A stretch of DNA of 14,570 bases from Chloroflexota bacterium (GTDB lineage Bacteria; Chloroflexota; Anaerolineae; UBA7937; JACPPX01). The notes below the pieces were generated by a model. It saw nothing but the letters and a program-made list of their open reading frames with translations. It was not told the origin of the DNA and searched no databases. Shown in pieces: positions 3,399-11,080 of the stretch. The stretch is from assembly GCA_016196905.1 (NCBI GenBank), contig JACPWV010000054.1, positions 1-14,570 on the forward strand, in the 5' to 3' direction. The position numbers and the translations under genes were made by a program. Numbering within the stretch: the first letter of the stretch is position 1; each line of letters begins with the position of its first letter.

Positions 3399-3908
3399 TC
3401 AAATGGGCTGGAAATACAGGATATCGGTGATGGCCCCGTTGCGCTCTTCAGCGGGTTTCCAGACCGCCTTCACCGGCATGCCGACCTTGACCTGTTGGGG
3501 ATCGACTTCGCCCAGCTTATGCAATATCCCCACCCGCGGCGAGGTCCCATCGATCTCGATCACTGCGGGGATCTCAGGCACTTCGAGTCTTTTGACGTCC
3601 CAAGAGACGTAACAAATCGAGAAAGTGTTGACGGTGCCGGTATCGGGAAGCTCGCCCCACTCGTCCATGGGCGCGAAGCACTGCTCGCAGAAGATGCGCG
3701 GCGGGATGACCGTGCGCCCACAACGACGATGGCGCACGCCCATCAACCGCCCATTCCGCAGTTCTTCGAGATAGCGCCCCATGGCGATCCCCGCATCCCA
3801 GGCGTATTCGGCCTTGGGGACCCAGGAAGTCGAGAGCACCTTGCGTTGTGAGATGTCCTCGGGCGTCAAGGCTAGGCCGGGCAGTTCACGAACGATCTTC
3901 GCCATCAT
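3399..3908 (-). CDS. DUF35 zinc-ribbon/OB-fold protein (acyl-CoA associated), copy 2
   Basis: 169 residues with the same plan as the next DUF35 gene: helix (MGRYLEELRNGRLMG), zinc ribbon, OB fold (TGTVNTFSICY to VGMPVKAVWKP). The ribbon is unusual: the first Cys of the usual Cx2C pair is His (H60-x2-C63, then C74-x2-C77), although a Cys3His site can still hold zinc. The N-terminal extension of about 40 residues is longer than in copy 1. Two ATG codons in tandem (3908 and 3905) follow GAGGGC; the second gives better Shine-Dalgarno spacing, so the start could be three bases in. The gene begins seven bases after the thiolase-like gene's stop, which argues for a complex between these two products. 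The two DUF35 copies differ enough not to be a recent duplication. Confidence 0.88.
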   Translation of the reverse strand: MMAKIVRELPGLALTPEDISQRKVLSTSWVPKAEYAWDAGIAMGRYLEELRNGRLMGVRHRRCGRTVIPPRIFCEQCFAPMDEWGELPDTGTVNTFSICYVSWDVKRLEVPEIPAVIEIDGTSPRVGILHKLGEVDPQQVKVGMPVKAVWKPAEERNGAITDILYFQPI

Positions 3909-3915
3909 GCCCTCG

Positions 3916-5094
3916 TTATACTCCCAGGATGGCCACGGTGCCTACCTGCATCAGGTCGCCCCAGGCCTGGGCCAGGCCGGTTCGCGGGTTGCCAGGCACC
4001 TGACGCTTCCCTGCCTCGCCGCGCAGTTGCCAGAAGAGCTCGGCCACCTTCATCAGGCCCGCGGCGGCGATGGGGTTGCCCACCCCCAGCAAACCACCCG
4101 AGGGCGTGGCGGGGAGGTCCCCGTCGCGGTCGAAGACGCCCTCCGCCAACAAGCGGGGCGCCTCACCTTTGGGAGCGAGCAGCAGCCCTTCCAGGTGATG
4201 GAGCTCTTTGTAATCGAAGGGATCGTAGGGTTCAACGATGTGGATCTCCTTGCGCGGCTCTTTAATGCCCGCCATCTCGTATGCCATCCGCGCGGCGCGC
4301 TCGACATACTCTGGGTAGGAGAGATCGCGATTGGTCCAGTAGGCGCTGTCCAGGCACCAACCGACGCTCTTGATCCACACCGGCTTATCGGTGATGCGCT
4401 TGGCGGCATCCTCCGAGGCCAGGATCACCGCCACGGCGCCATCGCTGGTAGGGCTCACGTCCAGGCGCTGCACCGGCCAGGCCAGCACCTCGGAGTTGAG
4501 GACGTCCTCGACAGTGATCTCGGCGGCCAGTTGGGCTGCGGGGTGGTCCATAGCGTTGCGCTTGTTCTTGACCGCGACGCGGGCGATATCCTTCTTGGAG
4601 AGGCCGTACTTTTGCATATAGCGATTCATCTCCAGGGCGAAGATCCACAGGAGGTTCGGCTTCAAGGGCCGCTCGGTGGTGTGGTCGAAGATGGTCAAGA
4701 AGGCCGCCTGGGGATGGGGCAAGCAAGAGGACATTTTCTCTTCGCACACCACCAACACGGCATCGAAAAGGCCGGAGGCCACATGGTACCAGCCTTGGAT
4801 GACGGAGAAGACGCCGGTCCCCCCGCCCACGTAGGCGCGCATAAATGGTTTTCCGTAAGCCCCCGCGCCATCGCTGAGGTACTCGCCGTTCATGTGCACG
4901 CCGTCGAAGGCGTCGGGGGCGGTGCCCAGACAAACGGCTCCGATGTCTTGAATGCGCAGACCGCAGGAGTCGAGGGCCAGGCGGGAGGCATGGAAGGCTA
5001 ACTCCTGGGCCGTCTCCTGAGCCCGGCGCACGAACTTGGTCATCCCCGCGCCGACCACCGCTACTCGGCGAAGACCAGTGCGACGAAATGCCAT
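3916..5094 (-). CDS. SCP2-thiolase-like protein lacking catalytic residues, copy 1
   Basis: 392 residues covering the whole thiolase fold: N-terminal VAVVGAGMTKF, a mid-region EEKMS (118-122), VKNKRNAMDHP (175-185), EPYDPFDYKEL (288-298), and C-terminal GGLLGVGNP and QLRGEAGKRQV. The residues that define thiolysis are missing. The nucleophile motif CxSG is GGTG (G91), the GHP His is Asn (GVGNP, N340), and the C-terminal CxG motif reads AWGDL. This matches the SCP2-thiolase-like group that includes non-thiolytic enzymes such as the retro-aldolase Ltp2, which works with a DUF35 partner. The ATG has GAGAGG five bases upstream. The closely spaced downstream DUF35 gene is the probable partner. Reaction and substrate are not known; C–C bond cleavage of a beta-hydroxyacyl-CoA is a reasonable guess. 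Confidence 0.9.
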   Translation of the reverse strand: MAFRRTGLRRVAVVGAGMTKFVRRAQETAQELAFHASRLALDSCGLRIQDIGAVCLGTAPDAFDGVHMNGEYLSDGAGAYGKPFMRAYVGGGTGVFSVIQGWYHVASGLFDAVLVVCEEKMSSCLPHPQAAFLTIFDHTTERPLKPNLLWIFALEMNRYMQKYGLSKKDIARVAVKNKRNAMDHPAAQLAAEITVEDVLNSEVLAWPVQRLDVSPTSDGAVAVILASEDAAKRITDKPVWIKSVGWCLDSAYWTNRDLSYPEYVERAARMAYEMAGIKEPRKEIHIVEPYDPFDYKELHHLEGLLLAPKGEAPRLLAEGVFDRDGDLPATPSGGLLGVGNPIAAAGLMKVAELFWQLRGEAGKRQVPGNPRTGLAQAWGDLMQVGTVAILGV

Positions 5095-9831: not shown

Positions 9832-10512
9832 CTAGATCTGCCAGAACTCGCCGGTCAGCTCGAGAGACTCGCAAGCAGCGGCGAGCTCCTCCCGGGTCGG
9901 GCGGCCATCATCGATGTCCAGACGATGGGTATACAAGAGTCGCGAGAGTCCTATGAGCTGCGACCAGCTTACTGTTACGCCCTTCTTATCGGGACGGCTT
10001 TCGATCCAGGTATGCAGATGTTCTTCAGACCTGAAGAAGCACATATTGGCTCAGGTATCGACGATGTCCTGCCACCAGCGCGCCGCTGGAACGCCAAAGT
10101 GGATGACGACGGTCGGCGGATCGATCTTCGCGATGCCTCCCGCCTCGAGTCGCACGTCAATGGCCTCGGCGCAATCTGGGCAGACCGCCTGGATGTGGAT
10201 CGGCTCGCCCAGCACGACGTGAAAGGCCACCGCGTCCCAGGCGCAGTTGGCAAAGTAACGCACTCCATCCACGGTTTCGACGCGATAGGGCGTGGGCAGA
10301 GCAGAGAAGGGCATGGCCATCAAGATCTGGGTGGTATCGCTGAGGAGCACCCACTGGCGCTCGCGGGCCAACTCCCGCAGGGCAGCCTCGACCTCGCCCA
10401 AGGGCCACTCCAGAGTGCGCGCGATCTCATCTAGGGTGGGTGCCCGCCCCTGGCGCAAAAAATGCGCGTAGACAAACTGGCGAACTCGCGGTGGCGATAA
10501 GCACCACAGCAT
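9832..10512 (-). CDS. merB: Alkylmercury lyase (MerB) family protein, probable selenoprotein with in-frame UGA
   Basis: 226 residues when the TGA at 10051-10053 is read through. The N-terminus is a winged-helix-like segment (LSPPRVRQFVYAHF, PTLDEIARTLEWP), followed by the MerB core: FSALPTPYRV, YFANCAWDAV and CPDC (111-114), VIHFGVPAARWW. Against E. coli MerB, C90 and D93 match the catalytic Cys96 and Asp99. The TGA (codon 154, DIVDT-TGA-ANMCFF) falls exactly on catalytic Cys159 of FCCHVHFF. The frame then continues with conserved FFRSEEH, HRLD and LTGEFW to a TAG. A SECIS-like hairpin follows the TGA. MerB splits C–Hg bonds with two thiols and an Asp; a selenol there would bind Hg or another soft metal strongly. 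The start ATG lies 86 bases inside tatC and lacks a strong Shine-Dalgarno. The alternative is a pseudogene with a TGC/TGT to TGA change. Actual substrate is not known. Confidence 0.82.
10018..10050 (-). promoter_or_regulatory. Candidate bacterial SECIS element
   Basis: On the mRNA strand, UUCUUCA (10038-10032) pairs perfectly with UGAAGAA (10027-10021) and closes the loop GGUC (10031-10028), giving an AGGUCU apex. The outer AUG or GUG can pair with CAU (10020-10018) around a small bulge. The first loop G is 19 nt after the UGA; in E. coli fdhF the same GGUC loop follows at 18 nt, and bacterial SECIS elements usually fall in the 16-37 nt range. The stem is built from Phe-Phe-Arg-Ser-Glu-Glu codons, with AGG for Arg and TCT for Ser where GC-rich codons might be expected, consistent with selection on the RNA. 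Confidence 0.75.
10051..10053 (-). other. In-frame UGA, predicted Sec codon (position 154)
   Basis: This TGA interrupts an otherwise continuous MerB-family frame at the place where homologues have the catalytic Cys. TGA is used as a normal stop by many other genes here (tatA, tatC, nusB, fabG, fabD, CPBP protease, both DUF35 genes), so a genome-wide UGA-to-amino-acid code is ruled out and context-dependent recoding is required. Confidence 0.75.
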
Positions 10513-11080
10513 GCCGCCGATAATGACGCAGGAAGGCGGGGGAGACGATTCCCAGCTTGGCCAGGAAGAAGATCGCCAGCGGGGTCTCGAAGACCAACCC
10601 CATCGCCAACAGGAAGGTCGTCACGAAGGAGAGGTAAGGGGAGACCGCCCAGGTCTGGGCGATGACGTCGCTGAGGAAGCCCTGCAAGTAGCGCACCGCG
10701 AAGGGGAGTATGACCAGGGCGGCGAAGCCCACCCCCAGGGCAAAGGAAACCCAGGCGGCGGGGACGAAGATCATGAGGTAGCGTCGTTCCTGGTCCGTCA
10801 AAGCCGGGAGCAGGAAGCGGACCAACTGGTAGACGATGACCGGCATGGCCAGCACCACTCCACTGATCAATGAGACCCTGAAAAAGGCGATGATCGTCTC
10901 GGTGGGGCTGAGGGCCACCAGGCGGCCCTCTCCGATGGGCGCAACCAGTAGCAGCATGAGGGGCTTGGCAAAAGCCAGGCTCAACGCGGTGGTCATAGCC
11001 AGGGCGGCCAGGGAGATGAGCAGGCGCGAGCGCAGCTCCTGCAGGTGCTCCAGGATCGTCAGGCGCCGATGTTCGCTCAT
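10427..11080 (-). CDS. tatC: Sec-independent protein translocase TatC, C-terminally shortened
   Basis: 217 residues of TatC, the multi-spanning receptor that binds twin-arginine signal peptides. Recognisable parts are the N-terminal HLQELRSRL (12-20), the FFRVSLISG loop, PALTDQERRY (92-101), the Glu of GLVFETPLA (E165) and LGIVSPAFLRHYRRHAVVLI (176-195). In normal TatC the last motif is followed by a TPxDP-like loop and a sixth membrane helix. Here the frame changes to ATASSPVCLRAFFAPGAG and stops, while the MerB-family gene begins in another frame at 10512. TM6 is therefore missing, either through a deletion or recombination that joined the two genes, or because this lineage has a short TatC. 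The start overlaps the tatA stop by ATGA, so the two are translationally coupled. Confidence 0.88.
   Translation of the reverse strand: MSEHRRLTILEHLQELRSRLLISLAALAMTTALSLAFAKPLMLLLVAPIGEGRLVALSPTETIIAFFRVSLISGVVLAMPVIVYQLVRFLLPALTDQERRYLMIFVPAAWVSFALGVGFAALVILPFAVRYLQGFLSDVIAQTWAVSPYLSFVTTFLLAMGLVFETPLAIFFLAKLGIVSPAFLRHYRRHAVVLIATASSPVCLRAFFAPGAGTHPR

Follow-up and report, generated by a model that had tools for sequence, protein, structure and literature searches.

MerB is the model enzyme for breakage of the carbon-mercury bond. According to the accessible portions of PMC4525700 and PMC8261052, it holds mercury with two cysteines and Asp99 and breaks the Hg-C bond in a proton-assisted manner; a large survey of the family (PMC8261052) screened homologues for Cys at positions 96, 117, and 159 and for Asp at 99 and, in those same portions, names variants only at 99 and 117. 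That selenocysteine (Sec) can occur in a MerB-like protein has already been published: from what is accessible of each source, PMC9312934 includes an alkylmercury lyase MerB-like selenoprotein, PMC13188914 describes SaoL, of the selenocysteine-assisted organometal (SAO) system, with the motif CU and one Sec, and a selenoprotein table in PMC7435645 lists an "Organic mercuric lyase MerB2." Here, we describe a MerB-family gene with an in-frame UGA in a 14,570-nucleotide (nt) stretch of a Chloroflexota bacterium (assembly GCA_016196905.1, contig JACPWV010000054.1), which we call the window; it is contig C166 of genome G000, a draft of 1.41 Mb in 227 contigs that is 65% complete. The gene is very probably a real selenoprotein and, judged by its sequence, belongs to what appears to be a new Sec-MerB branch, distinct from SaoL, whose function we infer; Sec in a MerB-like protein as such was known.

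The gene and its diagnostic elements are located in the window as follows.

10512-9832, minus strand: predicted selenoprotein frame of the MerB family (PF03243), 226 amino acids (aa), with ATG at 10512 and TAG at 9834-9832
10243..10245, minus strand: codon for Cys90, paired with MerB Cys96 (UGA here in double-UGA relatives)
10234..10236, minus strand: codon for Asp93, paired with MerB Asp99
10053-10051, minus strand: UGA codon, predicted Sec154, paired with MerB Cys159
10021..10038, minus strand: hairpin resembling a selenocysteine insertion sequence (SECIS), UUCUUCA-GGUC-UGAAGAA, 12 nt behind the UGA, with its loop 19 nt behind

When TGA is translated as a residue, the only TGA in the frame is at codon 154, in line with a preliminary description of this DNA that had noted a single MerB-family frame interrupted solely at 10051-10053 (its gene coordinates, 9832-10512, are right; the strand is minus). 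The motifs NCAWD, FFRSEEH, and LTGEFW lie where that description placed them, and its assignment of C90 to Cys96, D93 to Asp99, and the TGA to Cys159 is confirmed by phmmer pairing with PDB chains, in which NCAWD pairs with the C96/D99 stretch and residue 154 pairs with Cys159 (counted along the printed alignment to 3f2g, a C160S mutant, at c159-s160). The Pfam MerB domain covers residues 69 to 194, spanning the UGA, at 108.6 bits (gathering score, 27). A structure model of the read-through protein (predicted local distance difference test [pLDDT], 96) has MerB structures as its best matches, and all 11 PDB chains recovered by the fold search at E ≤ 0.001 are MerB or MerB2.

Relative to MerB and MerB2 (PF03243; 3f0o and 5c17), the window protein is alike in its fold, its winged-helix N terminus, and its Cys96 and Asp99 positions, but the third member of the classical Cys96/Asp99/Cys159 set is a UGA, predicted to specify Sec. 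It also differs in scoring below the NCBIfam MerB cut-offs (74.3 versus 193 and 68.4 versus 200), in having no mer genes around it among the open reading frames (ORFs) scanned, and in having two Cys residues (C111 and C114) versus one in the aligned chain 3f2g. A plasmid search returned 72 records, the best ranked at 32.6% identity; among the 15 listed, those that are annotated are MerB, MerBA, mercury(II) reductase, or alkylmercury lyase family proteins.

Like SaoL (PMC13188914 and PMC9312934, as far as accessible), the window protein is MerB-like and has a single predicted Sec, and the accessible table of PMC13188914 contains no MerB-like selenoprotein family other than SaoL; moreover, the SaoL model (NF040728) is one of three NCBIfam models that match the window protein clearly. 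That the protein is SaoL itself is nevertheless quite improbable: the score is 59.1 bits against a cut-off of 140, the match stops at residue 141 of the protein, ahead of the UGA column (the profile has 159 positions), and Thr precedes the predicted Sec, giving TU rather than the CU motif reviewed in the accessible text. No genome among 400 of the phylum has a SaoL match over the cut-off, no SAO family occurs among the 10 neighboring window ORFs scanned with NCBIfam (E ≤ 1e-5), and ten relatives scored in the same way fall far under both the SaoL and the MerB cut-offs. The doubt about SAO membership voiced in the preliminary description is therefore borne out.

Among 79 related loci from GTDB contigs, 77 span the UGA column, and both UGA and Cys occur there, a comparison that the preliminary description had proposed: TGA is found in 46, TGC or TGT in 30, and CGC in 1 (L092, a fragmentary match). 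By record title, UGA rows derive from Chloroflexota, Acidobacteriota, Gemmatimonadota, Verrucomicrobiota, Planctomycetota, and "Deltaproteobacteria" (Myxococcota in the tree taxonomy), and the 30 Cys rows comprise 22 archaeal sequences, 6 from Chloroflexota, 1 from Verrucomicrobia (L090, whose frame is disturbed), and 1 from another bacterium. The best full-length relatives, at 34 to 45% identity, are Cys-containing MerB-like proteins, mostly from archaea (Thermoplasmata, Bathyarchaeota, and others) with some from Chloroflexota; they differ from the window protein in having Cys at the column, one extra residue between it and FF, and no SECIS-like loop. The window sequence is sister to this Cys clade in the tree (support, 99/87), and the approximately unbiased (AU) test does not reject its union with 67 single-UGA rows (P = 0.442). 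One single-type Sec MerB (L228, 3949 onward, plus strand) has an extra in-frame UGA, which falls at the Cys position of a C-terminal WC motif found in its relatives.

The locus displays the combination by which selenoproteins are recognized, an in-frame UGA that conserved coding sequence flanks on either side and that corresponds to Cys in homologues, and the reading of UGA154 as selenocysteine is strongly supported. The proposal that Sec replaces Cys159 draws on this exchange, on the conserved hairpin described below, and on the presence of selA and selD in the genome. Were the UGA instead a nonsense change of a Cys codon, in a pseudogene or through sequencing error, a draft metagenome assembly in many contigs and Cys codons at this column in relatives would both fit. 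Such an explanation is close to refuted: the same UGA recurs in relatives from other assemblies, the hairpin covaries, and the G+C contents of the three codon positions behind the UGA are coding-like (0.58/0.44/0.68). Frames degraded after the TGA, which the preliminary description had considered as a sign against its reading, are not what we see: each of 47 UGA rows has a single stop in its matched frame, namely, the UGA. Decoding of UGA as a sense codon throughout was also rejected, given that TGA terminates 9 of the 15 coding sequences (CDS) in the window (TAG terminates 4, the MerB-like gene included, and TAA 2) and is therefore an ordinary stop elsewhere in it; for this check, only terminators are informative, the other window frames having been defined as open.

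Protein databases hold most members of this branch in shortened form. When 5.8 billion proteins were searched, 123 matched, and among the 120 listed, 93 are 142 to 166 aa long, with 91 of these terminating in WWx(D/N)(I/L/V)xx(T/N), just ahead of the UGA column (stub ends were judged from the protein records). Most listed stubs are nameless or called "hypothetical protein," and the nearest database protein (P0002; 73% identity over 146 residues) ends at the UGA column too. Forms of this length, together with an ORF listing that shows both pieces of the window gene, would agree with a UGA that acts as a stop, yielding a 153-aa protein with or without a downstream product from the ATG at 10044. 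However, the 153-aa fragment would be without one metal ligand, both Pfam and the fold place the downstream part in the MerB domain, and the Cys relatives are single chains; as such, programmed truncation or a pair of proteins is scarcely credible, and we favor read-through at Sec154. Because so many of the listed relatives are stubs that end at this column, our results suggest that these organisms escape surveys of demethylation genes. One stub, P0061 (Archangium violaceum JRI60_07975), is a stored 150-aa protein that ends at the UGA column and is known from its protein record alone; A. violaceum is a possible culturable carrier.

The hairpin behind the UGA is conserved across UGA-containing relatives. 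We compared 92 rows, i.e., the UGA-159 sequences from fetched loci that passed a motif and length filter, window included: a [G/A]GTC tetraloop stands at a fixed offset behind the UGA in all 92 (77 GGTC and 15 AGTC), and the five pairs adjoining it are formed in every row. As the closing pair, the window has A-T, whereas 74 rows have C-G and 17 have T-A; the window's Arg and Ser codons are AGG TCT, versus mostly CGG TCG, such that two synonymous changes leave the pair intact. Two rows missed by the filter (L202 and L212) have the tetraloop likewise. In contrast, none of 29 Cys rows (L090 was left out) has this loop at the same place or one codon further, and six contiguous pairs can be formed anywhere in the stretch in 7 of these 29 Cys rows versus 88 of the 92 UGA rows. 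The GGUC loop presumably resembles that of Escherichia coli fdhF. An Rfam scan of the window gave no match at the gathering score.

Part of the selenocysteine machinery is present in the genome. Of the four genes that the preliminary description had named for inspection (selA, selB, selC, and selD), we found selA (582.8 bits) and a Sec-type selD (367.5 bits), the latter with a UGA of its own at CAGUASK; the remaining two are taken up below. Within the order, selB occurs in 7 of 9 genomes, the other miss being the second genome of the window's family, and a match to tRNA-Sec exceeds the cut-off in 6 of 9, although some of these may be other long-arm tRNAs. Across the class, selB (E ≤ 1e-60) is found in 314 of 396 genomes: it is present in 48 of the 52 with a UGA-bearing MerB-like match (counted by hand from the class-wide search) versus 266 of the 344 others (Fisher P = 0.010, with the genomes not being independent). 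The four UGA-bearing genomes without selB (G000, G493, G616, and G652) are 65 to 85% complete.

We regard as well supported the reading frame, the exchange of Cys for UGA, the conservation of the hairpin, this part of the Sec machinery, and the fold; from there, we infer that the product contains Sec and that it cleaves organomercury, along with the identity of the substrate and the steps of catalysis. We consider it probable that the gene encodes a selenoprotein of MerB fold whose action on an organometal is most likely MerB-like. SelB, directed by the hairpin right behind the codon, would put selenocysteine at UGA154, and the active site would therefore consist of Cys90, Asp93, and Sec154 in place of the classical Cys96, Asp99, and Cys159. 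The thiol and the selenol would together hold the metal of the organometal, with mercury as the leading candidate, Asp93 would aid the proton transfer by which the metal-carbon bond is broken, and low-molecular or protein thiols would then take over the metal. Selenols are more acidic than thiols, are ionized at lower pH, and bind more tightly to soft metals, including mercury. Owing to this acidity and tighter binding, a Sec-containing site may be better at capture and cleavage when substrate is low; metal release would then be the harder step, and other thiols may be needed for it.

Several observations weigh against this reading. In the genome, which is 65% complete, neither selB nor selC (tRNA-Sec) is over the cut-off, and the same holds for the second genome of the family. 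All selB-like matches in G000 fall below the cut-off and are presumably other translation GTPases, and of nine matches to the tRNA-Sec model RF01852, none over the cut-off, the eight with loci are ordinary tRNAs (three Ser, two Leu, and one each for Trp, Thr, and Gly). Third-position G+C is 0.68 behind the UGA, versus 0.79 before it and 0.80 in the other CDS. The ATG sits within the tatC-like gene that lies upstream, and the alignment with the nearest homologue does not extend to the first seven residues, on account of which the 5′ end of the gene, at its junction with tatC, may be rearranged or mis-assembled. Taken alone, the window hairpin has a fold z-score of -0.52 (single-sequence fold energy was discarded as evidence for a SECIS), random synonymous versions yield 7 pairs there in 20.7% of cases and 7 pairs plus the GGTC loop in 4.0%, and the FFRSEE peptide by itself already favors such pairing; since chance is not excluded for the window hairpin alone, the case rests on its conservation in relatives. 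Finally, no mer or organometal family is found among the 14 neighboring ORFs scanned, and no mer operon surrounds the relatives, as assessed by eye and by clustering.

This last point bears on a rival reading in which the gene is a true selenoprotein but not an organomercury lyase, acting instead on another organometal or a metalloid, in metal capture, or in a redox step. It arises because acyl-CoA and housekeeping genes surround the gene, and a separate Cys-containing MerB-like gene by the end of a MerA gene in the same genome could handle mercury. We regard this reading as rather unlikely, although it is the more serious of the alternatives: the three catalytic positions of MerB are all present, the predicted Sec standing in for one Cys, and at E ≤ 0.001 the fold search recovers MerB chains only.

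The gene's surroundings include one overlapping neighbor.

10427..11080, minus strand: tatC-like gene, upstream of the MerB-like frame, which its 3′ end overlaps by 86 nt; profile positions 1-192 of 215 are matched

The tatC-like gene is short at its C terminus. It is best regarded as context and is probably not a functional partner of the MerB-like gene. One flank holds tatC, tatA/B-like, and nusB genes; the other holds genes for CoA transferase, thiolase, a ChsH2-like protein, and acyl-CoA dehydrogenase. Neighbors were clustered across 103 loci (63 single-UGA, 31 Cys, and 9 double-UGA): the largest shared clusters cover 13 to 17 loci, nearly all from Chloroflexota, and by eye resemble housekeeping and thiolase-type genes, and a cluster of four loci (L028, L032, L054, and L088, one of them single-UGA) resembles, by eye, a heavy-metal ATPase.

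The preliminary description, with SAO in view, had stated that no other component is visible, which holds for the window but not for the genome, in which contig C198 carries a mer-like cluster: the MerA end and the Cys-containing MerB-like gene, together with genes for a MerE-like protein, a thioredoxin-fold (AhpC/TSA) protein, and a membrane protein. The reductase of this cluster has a UGA of its own.

G000 contig C198 (L153), 3512-4918: MerA/lipoamide-dehydrogenase-like flavoprotein, with TGA at 3626 at the first redox Cys, GGTUVNVGCIPTK

This frame is interrupted solely by that TGA. A search with the reductase gave 188 proteins at E ≤ 1e-100, and among the best 120, which are listed and include the genome's own, 88 begin directly at the redox site, behind the UGA, 31 begin further downstream, and 1 is full length with Cys. 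The MerA-like reductase looks like a second selenoprotein family that is shortened in databases, as far as the protein records of its relatives tell. With a predicted Sec lyase and a predicted Sec reductase in one genome, both steps would run on selenols, and we tentatively raise the possibility of a selenium-based organomercury or organometal pathway outside SAO. In the accessible parts of the literature searched (which included PMC13188914, PMC9312934, PMC7435645, PMC5029168, PMC12013277, PMC2398784, and PMC8261052), we found no mention of the Sec-MerB branch, of a double-Sec MerB, or of a MerA-like Sec reductase, although priority is not settled; in PMC13188914, as far as accessible, the mercuric, disulfide-oxidoreductase, and FAD-dependent entries hold no MerA-like Sec reductase.

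Searches with stops read through, which covered 400 genomes of the phylum with PF03243 (59 with a match) and 396 genomes of the class with alignment A1 (69 with a match), revealed that 22 genomes of this phylum carry 24 sequences in which UGA occupies the Cys96 column as well as the Cys159 column.

L098/L151, L099/L152, L144-L150, L185, L187, L189-L201, and L229: double-UGA rows, with conserved stem-loops behind both UGAs

Six of these rows form a first type, UG(L/F/M)(E/D) ... UxxMxLFRSEEH, and seventeen form a second, AUxxD ... UxxSxFFWSEE, with small variation; L229 stands apart from both. Two double-UGA genes (in G003 and G004) belong to the window's own order. All 24 have Asp or Glu at position 99, and the tetraloop is kept behind the second UGA. 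Behind the first UGA, where a free search was made for the best stem (a different stem was best in 3 of 24 rows), all 17 rows of the second type share a 15-base stem-loop at a constant offset, and a stem with a CGTG[C/T] loop is seen in five of the six rows of the first type. All six double-UGA rows submitted to Pfam are MerB above the gathering score, and the four scored with NCBIfam fall under every MerB and SaoL cut-off. In a tree of 136 rows, UGA at 96 requires three changes and UGA at 159 also three, with the caveat that L229 and others are long-branched and that the seventeen-row branch may be misplaced; the double-UGA rows appear to form at least two separate branches.

The metal site of MerB would thus occur in three states within one family: Cys/Asp/Cys, Cys/Asp/Sec (the window gene), and Sec/(Asp or Glu)/Sec. 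Together, the Sec-159 branch and the Sec-96/159 branches constitute a natural experiment on why a selenol is chosen for mercury, and the double-Sec relatives merit a study of their own. The neighbors of double-UGA loci have almost nothing in common; at one of them (L145), the genes upstream of the double-UGA gene resemble, by eye, parts of a transporter of the energy-coupling factor (ECF) type.
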